Source of the DNA: an uncultured Gammaproteobacteria bacterium
Lineage (GTDB): Bacteria; Pseudomonadota; Gammaproteobacteria; Magnimaribacterales; Magnimaribacteraceae
Assembly: GCA_913031395.1 (NCBI GenBank)
Contig: CAJWDT010000007.1
Span: forward strand, 1 to 51,107
Length of the DNA stretch: 51,107 nt
Direction of reading: 5' to 3'
This document shows, one piece after another, positions 39,371-47,663 of this stretch (positions within the stretch are counted from its first letter, which is position 1; the number at the start of each line of letters is the position of its first letter). A program made the translations under genes and the position numbers. The notes under the pieces are model-generated. The model did not search any database. It saw only the letters and a list, made by a program, of their open reading frames with translations, and was not told the DNA's origin.

Positions 39371-40600
39371 ATGGGTAGATTAATAGTTAAAAAGTTTGGA
39401 GGCACTTCGGTAGCAGATAGTGTCCGCATTGAAGCTGTAGCGGATAATGTAGAAGCTGAAATCAGAAAGGGCAATAAAGTCACAGTTGTTTTGTCAGCTA
39501 TGGGCAAAAGTACAGATGCTCTTATTGAACTAGCTAAAGAAATCAACCCTGAACCGGATTTGCGGGAATATGATGCGTTAGTCTCAACCGGAGAACAAAT
39601 CTCTGTTGCCTTATTGGCCATGGCACTTTTAAAGCGCGGAATTAAGGGAAAGTCTTATACTGCCTATCAATTAGGTATCAAGACAAACTCAAGCCATAGC
39701 AGGGCACGTATCTTAGATGTAGAGGTAAGTAAAATAACCTCAGAACTTAATGATGGAGTTGTACCTGTAATCACTGGCTTTCAAGGTATGAACGAATCTG
39801 GAGATATAACTACTTTAGGGAGAGGGGGCTCAGATACTACCGGTGTAGCTCTGGCTGTAGCTTTAAAAGCTGATGAGTGCCAGATTTATACAGATGTTGA
39901 TGGTGTATTTACAACAGATCCTAGAGTTTGCTCTAAAGCAAGATTACTCAAAGAAGTGAGTTTTGAAGAAATGCTAGAATTATCGAGTTCAGGAGCTAAA
40001 GTTCTTCAGTTAAGAGCAGTAGAATATGCTAGTAAATTCAAATTACCCCTTCGCGTCTTGTCGAGTTTTAACGAAGGCGAGGGGACATTAGTTCAAGAGG
40101 AGAAAAACATTATGGAAAGACCAATTGTATCGGGGATTAGTAGTATTGATACTGAAGCAAAACTCACTATTAGAGGTGTGCCTGATGTTCCAGGCGTTGC
40201 TGCAAAAATCTTAAGTCCCATTAGTGATCAGGAAATTGAAGTTGATGTTATTGTTCAAAATATCAGCGCTGATAATAATACTGACTTTACTTTCACTGTC
40301 GACAAAGCTGATGCAAAAAGAGCAGAAGATATTTTAAGAGAAGTCTCTGAATCTTTGGGTGGTGGACTTGTCGAAGTAGACGACAACATAGCAAAAATTA
40401 GTATTGTTGGAAGAGGGATGAGAGCCCATGCCGGTGTGGCTAGCAAAATGTTTCAAGCACTTGCAAAGAGTGAAATTAATATCTCAATGATTACAACTTC
40501 TGAAATTAAAATATCTGTTGTTATAGAAAAATCTGAAATGTCTAAAGCGGTTACTGCTCTTCATGAAGCTTTTGATTTAGATAAAGAGTTAGATACTTAA
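39371..40600 (+). CDS. lysC: Aspartate kinase
   Basis: A 409-aa monofunctional aspartate kinase feeding Asd. The kinase-domain signature VKKFGGTSVAD is N-terminal, with TTLGRGGSDTTGVALA near 147-162 and YTDVDGVFTTDPR near 177-189. Two C-terminal ACT-like regions (about 265-330 and 345-400) are expected to mediate feedback inhibition by lysine and/or threonine. The stop overlaps the next gene's ATG by one base. Confidence 0.96.
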   Translation: MGRLIVKKFGGTSVADSVRIEAVADNVEAEIRKGNKVTVVLSAMGKSTDALIELAKEINPEPDLREYDALVSTGEQISVALLAMALLKRGIKGKSYTAYQLGIKTNSSHSRARILDVEVSKITSELNDGVVPVITGFQGMNESGDITTLGRGGSDTTGVALAVALKADECQIYTDVDGVFTTDPRVCSKARLLKEVSFEEMLELSSSGAKVLQLRAVEYASKFKLPLRVLSSFNEGEGTLVQEEKNIMERPIVSGISSIDTEAKLTIRGVPDVPGVAAKILSPISDQEIEVDVIVQNISADNNTDFTFTVDKADAKRAEDILREVSESLGGGLVEVDDNIAKISIVGRGMRAHAGVASKMFQALAKSEINISMITTSEIKISVVIEKSEMSKAVTALHEAFDLDKELDT

Positions 40601-40974
40601 TGGAAGCATTCATCGAACTATTCGGTCTAGAACAAGGAATCTTAAGGGGTTTTATTTTTGGTTTAGTTCATGTTGGAATCCTGATTATCGGCTATTATTC
40701 TGGTTGGAGCATTAATCGACTTTTAAAAAAAACCTCTAATGGGCATATCGCTGGAATAATAGGGGCTGTTATCGCTCATATAATGGCCGACCTTATCGCA
40801 TCTCTTCTGGATCCCACAATGCGCTCTGCTGCCTTTGGCATTATGTTAGGAGGGTTACTTCCTCTACTTTTCATTCCTTTGCTTGAAAAATATATCGTTA
40901 AGAGTGATGACCATATTATGGTTGGAGATCATGAAGATATAGAAAAAGATTTAAAATCCCACACTCAAAACTAA
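40600..40974 (+). CDS. Uncharacterised small membrane protein following lysC
   Basis: A 124-aa protein I do not recognise. Three hydrophobic helices are visible near 12-35, 48-70 and 74-95, with His24, His48 and His59 in or near them. A charged tail follows (SDDHIMVGDHEDIEKDL). It overlaps the lysC stop by one base (TAATG), so it should be translated with lysC. csrA normally occupies this position in Pseudomonas-like genomes, and this is clearly not CsrA. Confidence 0.6.
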   Translation: MEAFIELFGLEQGILRGFIFGLVHVGILIIGYYSGWSINRLLKKTSNGHIAGIIGAVIAHIMADLIASLLDPTMRSAAFGIMLGGLLPLLFIPLLEKYIVKSDDHIMVGDHEDIEKDLKSHTQN

Positions 40975-41018
40975 ATTAATACCTCTCTATAAATAAAACT
41001 TATTTTTATAGTTGCATT

Positions 41019-41033
41019 TGAGAATCATTCTCA
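41019..41033. promoter_or_regulatory. Fur box 1
   Basis: TGAGAATCATTCTCA is a perfect 7-1-7 inverted repeat matching the Fur consensus TGATAATNATTATCA in all but symmetric changes. It lies 80 nt upstream of the TonB receptor ATG. It indicates repression under iron sufficiency. Confidence 0.85.
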
Positions 41034-41049
41034 TCTATAATGCGACTCG

Positions 41050-41112: not shown

Positions 41113-43296
41113 ATGAAAAGAATTACTTTATTTATAACAGCTTTATTTCTGAACTTTTCCATTTTTGCATCTGATGTAGATATGGAAGTAATAGAAATAA
41201 TTGGTTCTAAAGAAGACGCTACTAAAATAGCGGGATCGGCTTCTGTTATTACAGAAGAGGAGTTAGAGACTTATGAATATACGGATATTCACAAGATTTT
41301 ATCAAATGTTCCTGGTGTAAATTTCAGGCCTGAAGAGGGTTACGGATTAAGACCTAACATCAGTATTAGAGGAACTTATGCTGACCGTTCTGGTAAAATA
41401 ACACTAATGGAAGACGGGGTTTTGATAGCTCCTGGGCCATATTCAGCTTCTTCAGCTTATTATTTTCCTACTGCAGGAAGAATAGCTGGAGTTGAGGTTC
41501 TTAAAGGACCTGCTGCTATCTCTCAAGGACCTTACACTATCGGTGGTGCGATCAACTTATTAAGCACACCTATAGCTGAAGAAACTGGCGGTCTTATCAA
41601 CCAAGAGTTCGGTGAAGACGGATTTTCAAGAACACATCTTCATTACAGTATGGTTGGAAAAAATGCTGCTATGCTCATTGAATCCCATACTTGGGAAACT
41701 GATGGATTTGATTCCATTAAAGGTTCTGATGCTGATACAGGATTTGATAAAGATGACCTAGTGATCAAATTGAGACTTAACACCGATGCAGACGCAGCTA
41801 TTTATCAAGAATTAAATATTAAATATCAAGATTCAGATGAAGATTCTGATCAAACTTATGTTGGTTTAGCTGATGCTGATTTCAGAAAAAATGCTCATCA
41901 ACGTTATGGTCTTTCAGCTTATGACAATATGGATAATAGTCATGAAACGACTTCTTTCAATTATATTGCTGATTTTGGAGACCTAGAAATAAGTGCAACA
42001 ATGTATGAAAACGACTTTGCCAGAAATTGGTTTAAAGTTGATAAGATCGATAACAACAAAGTCTACGGCCATGGCAATGGTATCAATAATATAATTGCAG
42101 CAGCAAATGCTGGCGAAGCAACCGCCTCTGCGATCTTAAATGGTACTAATGACGAAGCTGTTGAAATTAAGCTTAAGAATAATAACCGTGCTTATACTAA
42201 TGAAGGTACTGATCTTAAACTTCAATACAAAACTGAAAATCAAACTCTTACCTTAGGTTATAGAGATACTGAAGATTCTGAAGATAGATTCCAAGTGTAC
42301 GCATATACTCCATGGTCAGGTGGTCAATTAGGCCCTTTAACGGTGGGATCTGATCCCGGTTACAGTTCTAATAATAGACTTACAACAGCTGAAGCAGACG
42401 CGTTTTATATCAATGAAGAGTTAACTATGGGAGCTTTAACTGTAAATGTGGGATACCGTTCAGAAGATTGGACAATTGTTCAAGAACGCTATACTGATGC
42501 AGCAAGAACAGCAGTTAATACCGATAAAGGATACCCTAAGACTTTGTCTGATAACGACAATTCATTGATGGGATTCGGAGCTACATATGATATGAATGAG
42601 ACTACACAGATATTTGTAGGTTTTCATGAAGGCTTTACTCCAACGGGTGGAGGAGCAGATCCTGAAGAGGCTGATAACCTTGAAATGGGTATTAGATACT
42701 CAAATGACAATACATTTGTAGAGGCAGTATATTTTGATACTGATTATCAGAATATGTTTGGAAACTGTACAGCTTCAGGTGGAGCTACAGGATATTGTGA
42801 AATAGGTGATTCTTTTAACGCCGGAGAAGCTTCAATAAGTGGAATAGAGCTAGTTGCTAGAACTGAAATGACTGCTGCTTCTGGGACTACTTATCCTCTT
42901 AGCTTAGTCTACACATCAACAGATGCTGAATTCGATAATACCTTTGAGAGTGATTTCTGGGGTGACGTAACAGCTGGAATGGAAATACCAGATCTTCCAG
43001 ATACTCAATTAGCTTTAACTGCTGGTTTTGAAACTGTAAATGGTTTACGCGGAAGCGCTACTTTATATTCTTATGGAAGCACTTGCTCAGTTGCAAGTTG
43101 TGCAGCTGGAACAGAAATTGATTCCTATAATGTAATGGATGCTTCGTTGACCCAAGCAATTAATGAAAGTCTTTCAGTATATGTAGTTGCGGCTAACCTT
43201 ACTGACGAAACTGATGTTATTGCTAGAGCTCCTAAAAACGGCGCAAGGGCTCAAATGCCTCGTACGTTCTTAGTTGGAATTCGTTACAGACTATAA
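41113..43296 (+). CDS. Fur-regulated FecA-like TonB-dependent outer-membrane receptor
   Basis: A 727-aa receptor. The signal peptide spans 1-20 (ending IFAS), followed by a TonB-box-like EVIEIIG. The plug domain, about 40-155, includes ILSNVPGVNFRP, ISIRGTYADRSGKI and GVEVLKGPAAI. The 22-strand barrel ends LVGIRYRL with a C-terminal hydrophobic residue. Plug sequence resembles FecA-type ferric dicitrate/siderophore receptors. The Fur sites upstream and an AGGGG Shine-Dalgarno support an iron-uptake role; the ligand is not determined. Two cysteine pairs in late loops (CTASGGATGYC, CSVASC) may form disulfides. Nothing suggests partner transporter genes nearby. Confidence 0.92.
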   Translation: MKRITLFITALFLNFSIFASDVDMEVIEIIGSKEDATKIAGSASVITEEELETYEYTDIHKILSNVPGVNFRPEEGYGLRPNISIRGTYADRSGKITLMEDGVLIAPGPYSASSAYYFPTAGRIAGVEVLKGPAAISQGPYTIGGAINLLSTPIAEETGGLINQEFGEDGFSRTHLHYSMVGKNAAMLIESHTWETDGFDSIKGSDADTGFDKDDLVIKLRLNTDADAAIYQELNIKYQDSDEDSDQTYVGLADADFRKNAHQRYGLSAYDNMDNSHETTSFNYIADFGDLEISATMYENDFARNWFKVDKIDNNKVYGHGNGINNIIAAANAGEATASAILNGTNDEAVEIKLKNNNRAYTNEGTDLKLQYKTENQTLTLGYRDTEDSEDRFQVYAYTPWSGGQLGPLTVGSDPGYSSNNRLTTAEADAFYINEELTMGALTVNVGYRSEDWTIVQERYTDAARTAVNTDKGYPKTLSDNDNSLMGFGATYDMNETTQIFVGFHEGFTPTGGGADPEEADNLEMGIRYSNDNTFVEAVYFDTDYQNMFGNCTASGGATGYCEIGDSFNAGEASISGIELVARTEMTAASGTTYPLSLVYTSTDAEFDNTFESDFWGDVTAGMEIPDLPDTQLALTAGFETVNGLRGSATLYSYGSTCSVASCAAGTEIDSYNVMDASLTQAINESLSVYVVAANLTDETDVIARAPKNGARAQMPRTFLVGIRYRL

Positions 43297-43359
43297 GTAA
43301 TTATGGAAGTAATGCAATTAGCGATACTTAAGAAGATTAGTTATTGCTAAAAAGCGCCC

Positions 43360-43393
43360 TAGAGTGAGTCCCAAGCGCAGTGGACTCACTCTA
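43360..43393. other. Perfect 12-bp stem-loop downstream of the receptor gene
   Basis: TAGAGTGAGTCC, a 10-nt loop, then GGACTCACTCTA: a strong hairpin 64 nt after the receptor stop. Only ATTTAG follows, so it is a poor Rho-independent terminator. It could protect the mRNA 3' end or be part of a small RNA. Confidence 0.6.
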
Positions 43394-43395
43394 AT

Positions 43396-43435
43396 TTAGT
43401 CGGAATCCGTTACTGACATTAAACAATAACGGATT
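43396..43435 (+). repeat. Duplicate of the receptor gene 3' end (LVGIRY-stop) with 9-bp inverted repeat
   Basis: 43396-43413 (TTAGTCGGAATCCGTTAC) matches 16 of 18 bases of the receptor's own end (43270-43287). Read in the same relative frame it encodes LVGIRY followed by TGA; both mismatches are silent third-position changes. Weaker similarity continues for about 14 nt past the stop. The copy begins a 9-bp inverted repeat, AATCCGTTA (43404-43412) with TAACGGATT (43427-43435). It is probably a remnant of a duplicated or decayed receptor end. Confidence 0.65.
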
Positions 43436-43462
43436 AATCACACCCTCCCCAAGGTTGATTAA

Positions 43463-43496
43463 AAAAGGGATCAAGATACTTTTTTTGGTCCCTTTT
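43463..43496. terminator. Bidirectional terminator between receptor and hemH
   Basis: AAAAGGGATC, a 14-nt T-rich loop, GGTCCCTTTT: a 10-pair hairpin (one G-T) flanked by A-run and T-run. It lies between convergent genes and touches the hemH stop codon, so it can end transcripts from both sides. Confidence 0.7.
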
Positions 43497-44493
43497 ACTT
43501 TTCTGAGGCAGCAACTAAAAAATCTACCCAAGAATCTTCATTATTTAAACAAGGAATATAGTTAAAAGATTTTCCTCCAGCCTCTAAGAAAGTTTCCCTT
43601 CCTCTAATGTTCATCTCTTCAAGTGTTTCAAGATTATCCGTCACAAAAGCAGGGCAAACTACATCTAAGTGTTGTACACCTTCTTCAGCAAGTCTAACCA
43701 ACTCTTTATCTGTAAAAGGCTGAATCCAACCAGGACCTATTCTAGATTGGAAAGATACTCCCCATTCGTCATCTTTGAGTTCTAATTTTTTTGCGCAAAG
43801 TTTAGAAGTTTCAAGGACTTGGGCTTTATAGCAAAAAGGTTTTGCTTTTGATTCAATTTCACAACAATTTGTTACTTTTAAACAATGACTTTCAGTTGGA
43901 TCTGTCTTAATAAGATGCCTATTGGGTATGCCGTGATAACTAAACAACAAGTAATCACTTTCTTTTTGTCTATTACGATTTATAACATCACTCAAGCTTG
44001 AGATATATCCTCCTTCATTATAAAAAGCTCCTATGAAGTTCAGTCGAAGATCAAGTCCAAGTTTACTTTCAATTCTTGTAACTTCTCTTTCAGTAGTAAG
44101 GACCGTAGACATTGCGTAATGAGGATATAGTGGAACTACAAAAATTTCAGAACATCCTTTTGCCTTCAACTTTTTTAAGCCTTCTTCTATGCTAGGAAAT
44201 TGATATCTCATAGATACTTCAACCAATGCACCTGACTTAGCACCTACCTTTTCACCCAATGCAATAGTGTCATGAATCAATGGAGATCCATTCTCTGTCC
44301 AAATTTCAGAATAAGCTTCTCTTGTATTCTTGTATCTAGAAGGAATGATTATCCAATTTACAAGTATTTGCTGAAGAAACTTTGGGTAATCGATTACAAG
44401 ATCATCAGACAGAAACTCTTTTAGATAATCCTTTATAGATTTTAGTTCTAGATCTCTGGGAGAGCCCAAATTAATAAGAAGAATTCCTTTCAT
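43495..44493 (-). CDS. hemH: Ferrochelatase
   Basis: A 332-aa enzyme that inserts Fe2+ into protoporphyrin IX as the last step of haem synthesis. The N-terminal LLINLGSPRDLELKSIKDYL is typical, the active-site His lies in FSYHGIPNRH, and the late FQSRIGPGWIQPFTD stretch carries the conserved Glu-neighbouring region. A cysteine-rich segment follows the active site (CLKVTNCCE...FCYKAQ). Cysteines in this region occur in other bacterial ferrochelatases and may bind a [2Fe-2S] cluster; that is not certain here. Convergent with the iron receptor. Confidence 0.95.
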   Translation of the reverse strand: MKGILLINLGSPRDLELKSIKDYLKEFLSDDLVIDYPKFLQQILVNWIIIPSRYKNTREAYSEIWTENGSPLIHDTIALGEKVGAKSGALVEVSMRYQFPSIEEGLKKLKAKGCSEIFVVPLYPHYAMSTVLTTEREVTRIESKLGLDLRLNFIGAFYNEGGYISSLSDVINRNRQKESDYLLFSYHGIPNRHLIKTDPTESHCLKVTNCCEIESKAKPFCYKAQVLETSKLCAKKLELKDDEWGVSFQSRIGPGWIQPFTDKELVRLAEEGVQHLDVVCPAFVTDNLETLEEMNIRGRETFLEAGGKSFNYIPCLNNEDSWVDFLVAASEK

Positions 44494-45236: not shown

Positions 45237-45254
45237 TAAATTATGGAGAGTTTT

Positions 45255-47663
45255 ATGTCGGTTAGAAATCTACTTATCCTTTCGTTTTTATCGTTCCCTG
45301 TATTTTCTATTTCATCAGATGATGAAGTTTCTATTTTTGATGAGGTTGTTGTAACAGCCAGACAAAGAGAAGAAACTGCTCAGTCTGTGCCAATACCAAT
45401 AACAGCTTTGGGCGGAGATCAGATCGAAGCTAGGAACATTACTGAACTTGCAGATATAGGTAAATTAACACCTAATATGAATTTTGAAGCACAGGGTATT
45501 AATTCAACTGTAACCAATGTCTTTTTAAGAGGTATCGGTCAAACAAATTGGTCTGAAACACAAGATCCAAAAATTGGAATTTATATTGATGGTGTTTATT
45601 TAAGTCGTCCACAGGGTGGAATGGTTGACCTAATTGACGTCGAGCGTGTTGAGGTCCTTAGAGGGCCGCAAGGAACATTATTTGGAAGAAATACAACTGC
45701 TGGATTAGTTCACATAATTACAAAAGCCCCAACAGATGATTTTGAAGGATTTGTAAATCTAGGTATTGGAACAGAAGGTCACAGAGTTTTAAGAGGAGTG
45801 GTTAATGTTCCTCTATCAGATAGGTTTTCTTCCAGATTTGCTGTGATGTCAAAAGAGACTAATGGTTTTATGAAGAATCAAATTACAGGAAATTACCAAG
45901 GTAATGAAGATTCTCAATCTATAAGAGCATCTCTTCAATATTCCGGAGATGCTTACAACGCAAGATTTACATATGATCATTTTGAATCAGATGAGCTTGC
46001 AACTTTATCGAGTTGTCGTTTTATCAATCCAGAAAATGGTGCTCTAGCTACTGGGTTTGGTGCTGTTGCCTATCTTGCAGGAACATATGCCACGATGTTT
46101 AAGAACTGTAACGAAACTAGTTATGGTCTAGGAAGAGATAATAATCCTAATCAACAAGTAACCTCAGACACAGATTCTTTCACACTCACTCAAACTTTAG
46201 ACATGGAAATCGGTACTCTAACTATTATTTCTAATCATAGAGAAATTGAAAATTACAATGGTACTTGGGGTTGGGGTATGGGTTCGGGTAATTCTTCGAC
46301 CACTACCACAACTAATTTATTGGATGTAATCAATAATGCTAGTGAGAATGATATAGATTCGCATGAGATTAGACTCACTGGAGATACAGGCAATCTATCT
46401 TGGACATTAGGTGCTTATATGTTTGAAGAAGATAGTTTTGGCTCTATAGATGTCCCGGTTTTGAGAGGGTATACACCTCCATCAGCTGCTGATTGGCCGA
46501 TGTATTATCTTGTTATCCCTGGAGTTTTAAATGTAGCTCAAACTGTTATGGGCACAAAAATGTTTGGCTCTAGATCTCAATCAAATGATGTCACTAATTC
46601 TAATGAAGCTTTCTATGCAGAGGGAACCTATGCCTTTAATGATCAAACAGATTTAACTATCGGTATGAGAAGGACTGAAGATGAGAGGGAATATCTGAGA
46701 ATACAAAGTCTTATTGGAGGAGGTTTTGATCCTGCATATGCTTGTCCTGGAAATATCGATGGTACAACTGGAGTGGCTAAGAGCGATCGTTGTTATCAAG
46801 AGATCGATTATAGTGAGACAACTTCAAGAGCAATTCTTAGTCATGCTTATAATGAAGATTTCCTAGTCTATGCTAGTTATAGTAAAGGCTATTCATCTGG
46901 CGGCTTTAACCAAGATGTAAGAATGAAACCTTTCTTACCTGAAGTATCTGATAACTATGAAGTTGGATTCAAAAGTACTCTTAGAGATGGAACGATACGT
47001 CTAAATGCTACTTATTTTTCCACTATATATAAGAATCAGCAGATTACTGTTGGCAGAGTAATTGATGGCCAACCCACGGCAGATATTATTAATGCCGCAG
47101 AAGCAGATTTAAGTGGTTTAGAATTTGAATTAGCTGCTCAGTTAACAGATAACTTGGCATTAACTATGACTTATGGCCTGCTAGATGGGGAATATAATGA
47201 CTTTAATGTAATTGACACGCTTTACGATCCTGCAACTTTTGTTTCAACTGATGTTTTAAGGGATTTGACAGCAACTCCTTTTGGAGGCTCAGGAGATAAT
47301 GGTAAAAGTAACACCTTTGATATTGGACTAATCCATGACCAAACTTTATCAGATGGCACTTCCGTCACCAGCCAAGTTAGTTTGAATAAACAAGATAATG
47401 TTTGGGGAACTTTAGAGCATGTTCCAGGTTCAAATGCACCAGGATATACCTTAGTAGATGGAAGAATTGCAATGAGACTACCTGATGGCGTTACAACTAT
47501 TACGTTATGGGGTACTAACCTGACTGATAAAAGATATATAGCTAATATGCTTTGGCAGGGTGGAGACGTACCTGCAGGAGGAGTGGATCCTTCTCTTGGA
47601 TTTACTGCTGATTACTGGGGTCAACCGAGAAGATTTGGAATAGAGTGGCGTAGAGATTTTTAA
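45255..47663 (+). CDS. TonB-dependent receptor (SusC/sphingomonad-like OMR type)
   Basis: An 802-aa receptor. ATG 45255 is chosen because TATGGAGAG just upstream supplies a GGAG Shine-Dalgarno that would otherwise lie inside the coding region; ATG 45243 would add four residues. The signal peptide is 1-21. The TonB box DEVVVTARQREE is followed by a plug with FLRGIGQTNWSETQDPKIG, GIYIDGVYLSRP, DVERVEVLRGPQGTLFGRNT and GLVHIITKAP, a pattern of the large receptor group abundant in marine bacteria. The C-terminus PRRFGIEWRRDF is intact. The ligand is unknown; no Fur site is seen. An alpha/beta hydrolase follows 8 nt later. Confidence 0.92.
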   Translation: MSVRNLLILSFLSFPVFSISSDDEVSIFDEVVVTARQREETAQSVPIPITALGGDQIEARNITELADIGKLTPNMNFEAQGINSTVTNVFLRGIGQTNWSETQDPKIGIYIDGVYLSRPQGGMVDLIDVERVEVLRGPQGTLFGRNTTAGLVHIITKAPTDDFEGFVNLGIGTEGHRVLRGVVNVPLSDRFSSRFAVMSKETNGFMKNQITGNYQGNEDSQSIRASLQYSGDAYNARFTYDHFESDELATLSSCRFINPENGALATGFGAVAYLAGTYATMFKNCNETSYGLGRDNNPNQQVTSDTDSFTLTQTLDMEIGTLTIISNHREIENYNGTWGWGMGSGNSSTTTTTNLLDVINNASENDIDSHEIRLTGDTGNLSWTLGAYMFEEDSFGSIDVPVLRGYTPPSAADWPMYYLVIPGVLNVAQTVMGTKMFGSRSQSNDVTNSNEAFYAEGTYAFNDQTDLTIGMRRTEDEREYLRIQSLIGGGFDPAYACPGNIDGTTGVAKSDRCYQEIDYSETTSRAILSHAYNEDFLVYASYSKGYSSGGFNQDVRMKPFLPEVSDNYEVGFKSTLRDGTIRLNATYFSTIYKNQQITVGRVIDGQPTADIINAAEADLSGLEFELAAQLTDNLALTMTYGLLDGEYNDFNVIDTLYDPATFVSTDVLRDLTATPFGGSGDNGKSNTFDIGLIHDQTLSDGTSVTSQVSLNKQDNVWGTLEHVPGSNAPGYTLVDGRIAMRLPDGVTTITLWGTNLTDKRYIANMLWQGGDVPAGGVDPSLGFTADYWGQPRRFGIEWRRDF

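Follow-up and report, generated by a model that had tools for sequence, protein, structure and literature searches.

Why should the last codons of an outer-membrane receptor gene be written a second time a short way behind the stop codon that ends it? The question is raised by a 51,107-nt stretch of DNA (hereafter the window) from an uncultured gammaproteobacterium of the SAR86 group, whose own genome is a draft of 42 contigs at 80.8% completeness. In the window, the open reading frame of a TonB-dependent receptor, here receptor A, ends in the residues FLVGIRYRL, and an initial annotation had already pointed to a second LVGIRY downstream, to a set of inverted repeats around it, and to several ways in which the duplicate might have arisen. 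In the explanation that we favor, and to which we assign a probability of roughly 0.8, different receptors would have been swapped at one chromosomal slot, the tail of an earlier receptor A would have been left behind as a fossil and kept as a structured RNA, and A would later have re-entered the slot. The features on which the argument draws are collected in Table 1.

Table 1. Features of the receptor slot in the window, in order of position
Feature	Position	Strand	Remarks
Promoter block GTTGCATTTGAGAATCATTCTCATCTATAATG, common to A and B	41011-41042	+	Marks the left end of the exchanged tract
Receptor A, TonB-dependent receptor, 727 aa	41113-43296	+	Pfam TonB_dep_Rec_b-barrel 1.5e-24, Plug 4.8e-16
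Copy 1 of the repeat, TTAGTTGGAATTCGTTAC	43270-43287	+	Last codons of receptor A
Right junction, A replacing B	43297-43317	+	G001/G014 (A) and G006 (B) differ here and are alike again from ~43318
H1	43318-43351	+	Consensus helices 2 and 3; 7 pairs changed on both sides
Decayed C-terminal end of a former receptor A, ~80 nt	43340-43421	+	Codons ~VIARAPKNGARAQMPRTFLVGIRYRL; nhmmer E 2.7e-6
H2, 12-bp perfect stem, loop CAAGCGCAGT	43360-43393 (43360-43371/43382-43393)	+	Decayed KNGARAQMPR codons
Copy 2 of the repeat (LVGIRY), TTAGTCGGAATCCGTTAC	43396-43413	+	5' arm of hairpin H3
H3	43404-43435 (43404-43415/43424-43435)	+	9 pairs, 5 changed on both sides, 99.3% of cells paired
Lineage switch point	43431-43438		From informative sites, just 3' of copy 2
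H4, C-rich loop CCCUCCCCAA	43436-43462	+	Present 3' of A and of B alike
Bidirectional terminator-like hairpin, receptor/hemH gap	43463-43496 (43463-43474/43485-43496)		14-bp consensus helix, 98.1% of cells paired
hemH (ferrochelatase)	43495-44493	-	Fixed right neighbor of the slot, with synteny in genus and family; name predicted from its sequence

The repeat itself is as it was first described, with 16 of 18 bases identical between the two copies at a spacing of 126 nt. A chance repeat is ruled out by the comparison of copy 1 with all 18-mers of the window, none of which elsewhere agrees at more than 13 of the 18 positions, and the direct repeat of G001, a sister genome, is exact over 25 bp. 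The order of receptor A, fossil, and RNA is shared by three SAR86 MAGs that were assembled separately; this recurrence, together with similarity that reaches beyond the 18-mer back to ~43340, shows that the repeat arose neither by chance nor through an error of assembly.

The extent of that similarity was measured with an nhmmer DNA profile that covered the final 120 nt of A and was drawn from other genera only (G029, G026, G032, G030, G027, G022, and G024). In the window the profile matches at two places, first at the end of the gene (43178-43295) and again at the decayed C-terminus of Table 1. In most members of the window's genus (g1), the gene 5' of this fossil is a different TonB receptor, B, and the profile matches the equivalent place 3' of B in ten genomes of the genus (best E 8.7e-12, all below 0.001). 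Its matches in G002 and G008 are weak (E ~0.04), and in G003 it has none. The match 3' of B in G021, which belongs to another genus, has an E of 7.5e-16, and there the tail is nearly intact, still reading NGARAEMPRSIPVGIRYRL up to a stop codon with one base deleted just upstream. Conversely, R1, a covariance model derived from the sequences of the genus, matches the coding end of A in G029, G026, G030, G027, G032, G022, and G028, as well as copy 1 in G001, G014, and the window's own genome (G000). From these reciprocal matches it follows that copy 2 is the last part of a decayed A tail of ~80 nt, which combines, as a pseudogene fragment does, homology to coding sequence with a reading frame that is lost in g1. 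A direct repeat, GTTATTGCTA, at 43216 and 43340 marks the start of the fossil in the profile alignment, the 3' arm of H1 being too variable for base-level certainty. In two genomes of g4 (G033 and G034, loci L109 and L111) the fossil sequence 3' of B is largely replaced, and hairpins remain at the positions of H2 and H3.

Receptors A and B are alternatives in a single slot, lying at the same place between lysC/orf124 and hemH in family f1 of SAR86. Receptor A, whose close relatives are found in SAR86 MAGs, is 97-98% identical in G001 and G014, while B ends in NARLSITRRF and scores above the cut-off as a member of TIGR01783 (TonB-dependent siderophore receptor); the two are not alignable as DNA. 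Across the family (G000-G034) 14 genomes carry A, 17 carry B, 4 carry neither and none carries both, the calls of neither or absent being soft since nearly all of the genomes are MAGs or drafts from which genes may be missed. Under independence, zero overlap would have a probability of ~1e-6 by simple counting that ignores relatedness. On both the hemH and the alaS trees, G006, which has B, is nested within the cluster of G001 and G014, which have A. The hemH tree calls for about six A/B switches, at least five of them forced by supported branches, a number similar to that for shuffled labels; the long-branch placements of G018, G003, G033, and G024 are unsure. Outside the family, at L115, L116, and L119 of the f2 genomes, B adjoins a tRNA gene instead of hemH, so that B may have reached the hemH slot from elsewhere. 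Two further observations concern the genes of the slot. At L047 (G025:C72), A is spread over two reading frames with a break near residues 353-365, which is either a sequencing error or a broken gene. The gap between lysC and the receptor slot holds a conserved 124-aa open reading frame (40600-40974) in most of the family, not found in G005, G008, G009, G012, and G015, which matches no Pfam family and has a sub-threshold NCBIfam match.

These distributions bear on how the duplicate arose. Had A been doubled in tandem, with all but the last codons of the downstream copy lost to decay, copies 1 and 2 would share an orientation, as they do, and in genus g2 another receptor does come directly after A. 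Such a tandem duplication nevertheless seems improbable to us, given that the fossil is present in B genomes without any A, and that the close sisters G006 and G001/G014 differ in the upstream gene and otherwise share the fossil. Of the origins proposed in the initial annotation, the decay of a receptor and the recombination of receptor genes both stand and the tandem pair does not: the stump belongs to the slot's previous occupant, left when a different receptor took the slot. Less probable still, and close to negligible, is a mobile origin, in which copies 1 and 2 would be target-site or att duplications around a mini-element of ~108 bp at the gene end. The perfect 25-bp direct repeat of G001 and the strong inverted repeat within the insert have the look of such an element, yet the DNA between the repeats is single copy and confined to this locus, it aligns to the coding tail of A, and B loci possess it with one repeat copy only. 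Across 203 genomes of the order, the stretch 43318-43395 was found at no other site, with no more than a single locus per genome, which rules out a multi-copy, REP-like, or mobile repeat. The expectation that the 126-nt unit would recur behind other receptors of the same genome was likewise not borne out, as a DNA search and the RNA model each returned this locus alone; the sole other ACCCTCCCCA in the genome lies inside a coding region.

The edges of the exchanged tract can be read base by base. On the left, the promoter block is identical in G000, G001, and G014, which have A, and in G006, which has B; judged by the known consensus, we take it to be a putative Fur-box-like element. G001 (A) and G006 (B) have different receptors within flanks that agree at 92% and 94% identity. 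The window's A is 92-93% identical as DNA to that of G001/G014, against only 74-81% for lysC, orf124, and hemH, and its hemH is closer to that of G011/G013 than to that of G001/G014. Marker sites tell the same story at finer scale: between 43312 and 43431, 16 of 18 are G001/G014/G006-like, and from 43438 into hemH they are mostly G011/G013-like. Taken together, the identity profile and the marker sites show that the imported DNA comprises the promoter, A, and the first three hairpins (H1, H2, and H3), with its right end just past copy 2. The position of copy 2 at this seam is as expected if the conserved 3' UTR was the homology used. Elsewhere in the window, a second TonB receptor, rec2 (45243-47663), has 91% DNA identity to both G001 and G006 amid neighbors at ~70%, and 56% to G014, which has a different receptor there; rec2, too, looks as if it had been swapped as a unit.

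The DNA that follows either receptor is strongly structured. The inverted repeats reported initially are all present, namely the 12-bp perfect stem, the repeat overlapping copy 2, and the terminator repeat, and the suggestion that they might form a structured RNA gains strong support from paired changes and from conservation across the genus. The 204-nt stretch 43297-43500 has a predicted fold of -66.6 kcal/mol (z = -6.5 against 200 dinucleotide shuffles). A consensus fold of 15 genus sequences comprises 47 pairs, with 96.6% of cells paired and 22 of the 47 pairs changed on both sides, so that the stems covary; none of 500 shuffles reaches either value, and slid controls give 35-48% paired cells and 3-11 changed pairs. 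The + strand holds 64 G-U cells against 9 A-C cells, which identifies it as the RNA and disfavors an RNA read from the (-) strand of hemH. Mean identity is 0.63 in H1, 0.76 in H2, 0.84 in H3, 0.93 in AGTCGGAATC, and 1.00 in GCGCCC, compared with 0.40 at the fourfold sites of hemH in the same genomes. A known RNA family is ruled out by the Rfam search, which found a single tRNA in the whole window and, over this region, weak chance-level matches below the gathering score. By these comparisons, a conserved structured RNA is predicted between an iron-type receptor and the terminator, whichever receptor occupies the slot, and the substitution pattern indicates that the tail is under selection at the RNA level. 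Recombination that spreads the 3' UTR could aid its conservation; alone, it would not yield compensated changes.

The same pattern overturns one earlier argument, that the silent-only differences between the copies reflect selection on the protein. The same bases are missense in other species, copy 2 reading LVGICYRL in many members of the genus and PVGISYRL in G007, and the changes in copy 2 are matched by complementary changes in the opposite hairpin arm (alignment columns 139-162, 140-161, and 141-160). The alignment indicates that the silent differences are pair-preserving swaps in a stem, without codon selection. Part of the structure is dispensable in at least one setting: at L077 of G008, between B and hemH, H1 and H2 have been deleted between two short GTTCTAA repeats, and H3, H4, and the terminator directly follow B, from which it follows that H1 and H2 can be spared there.

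Could the RNA have come first? The hairpin RNA would then be the older element, and the C-terminus of A would have been read into it and come to overlap it. Predicted folds of the A loci in g4 and g5 do already have the last codons paired to the 3' UTR. Against this order of events, which we hold to be as improbable as tandem duplication, protein-level conservation of the tail of A (ARAPKNGARAQKPRT to GLR) is seen in g2, a genus in which the RNA model has no match in three of four genomes, and the fossil tracks the codons of A over ~26 residues. An outgroup RNA without a history of A was not found among the 203 genomes of the order, the one exception being a partial match of marginal strength in G185 (E 0.006). 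Predicted folds of the g4/g5 gene ends already show parts of H2 and H3, so that near-palindromic stretches of the coding tail may have been the starting point of the hairpins.

The homology of the fossil, the swapping at the slot, the recombinant tract, and the conservation at the RNA level are each demonstrated by the comparisons above, and the history that we propose would join them as follows. The slot between lysC/orf124 and hemH would hold one gene, with A and B exchanged by homologous recombination anchored at the 5' side in the common Fur-box-like promoter and at the 3' side in the conserved 3' UTR adjoining hemH. A would have been the first to stand beside hemH, and B would have displaced it in the ancestry of the window's genus through a crossover within the last ~26 codons of A; with the crossover there, the tail of A stayed behind as a fossil. 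No longer coding, this tail would have been retained as RNA, its codons becoming H2 and H3 beside H4 and the terminator. An intact A would then have re-entered the slot in the G001/G014 lineage, from which the tract from A to H3 would have passed into the lineage of the window. The outcome would be an intact receptor followed by the fossil of its own tail, with A returned in three species.

As for function, the most likely role is that of a putative structured 3' UTR on the mRNA of an iron-regulated receptor, where it would shield the 3' end; perhaps the 3' UTR also releases a candidate small RNA that would pair through the C-rich loop of H4. That the RNA serves 3'-end protection, insulation, and termination alone, with no trans-acting or regulatory role and the history unchanged, we judge to have somewhat less than an even chance. 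It adjoins a bidirectional terminator, and G008 kept its receptor after losing H1 and H2; against this, unpaired stretches (GCGCCC, AGTCGGAATC, and the C-rich H4 loop) are conserved like the stems or more so, and stability alone is therefore insufficient as an explanation. At the bolder end, the dead tail would be a trans-acting, Fur-regulated small RNA released with either receptor, its C-rich loop repressing other outer-membrane genes, and would double as a crossover anchor that preserves regulation. We consider this proposal rather unlikely; were it true, the anchor would let receptors be exchanged without losing their regulation. Between the H4 loop and the receptors' own ribosome-binding sites, those of A and B, there is a 5-bp complementarity, no more than with any strong Shine-Dalgarno site, in a comparison where a few leaders were taken from the first Met of the open frame and not from the likely start. 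This generic pairing, like the loss of H1 and H2 in G008, speaks against strong claims about function.

Small RNAs that derive from 3' UTRs or intergenic regions and carry C-rich anti-Shine-Dalgarno loops exist, and the present locus resembles them in its exposed CCCUCCCC-type hairpin loop just before an intrinsic terminator, here predicted from sequence. In E. coli, the IpeX RNA is located behind the remnant porin gene nmpC, in the interval from its stop codon to its terminator. IpeX is part of an outer-membrane porin transcript and lowers porin expression (PMC12197685, PMC5069750). It is a precedent for an RNA made within a porin transcript; unlike IpeX, the RNA described here is itself predicted to be decayed coding sequence, and a sequence relation between the two is not to be expected. 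A search of the literature for coding remnants turned bacterial small RNAs found no usable precedent, and it is this step from fossil to RNA at a swap seam that is the unusual part.

The exchange itself has closer parallels. Replacement flexible genomic islands are exchanged by homologous recombination in aquatic bacteria (Lopez-Perez et al., 2014; PMC4033161), and the slot is like them in that different genes, providing alternative surface functions, occupy the same chromosomal site and are exchanged between lineages through conserved flanks. It is unlike them in that a single receptor gene of ~2.2 kb is exchanged, whereas that study, which mentions neither TonB nor SAR86, reports complete clusters rather than individual genes, and in that the edges are a common promoter and a structured 3' UTR, with the fossil of the former occupant marking the seam. 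In Neisseria meningitidis, according to the accessible portion of PMC3068627, the TonB-type hemoglobin receptor gene hmbR is missing in some isolates, which have the exl2-4 ORFs instead, and its diversity has been shaped by horizontal exchange; in that case no second receptor under a common promoter serves as the alternative, and that portion reports no retained structured tail. TonB transporters are abundant across SAR86, and the swapping of one receptor by recombination is not discussed in the available part of that account (PMC11582366).

Outer-membrane receptors are at once nutrient doors and phage targets, and a slot that has flipped between A and B at least five times within one family allows selection by iron source or by phage to be tested directly. 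The locus offers a base-by-base record of receptor switching, complete with an earlier seam, in one of the most abundant bacterial groups of the ocean. Under the history proposed here, it would also preserve the stepwise passage of coding sequence into structured RNA in bacteria, with the tail still coding in g4 and g5, a fresh fossil in G021, and a covarying RNA in g1.
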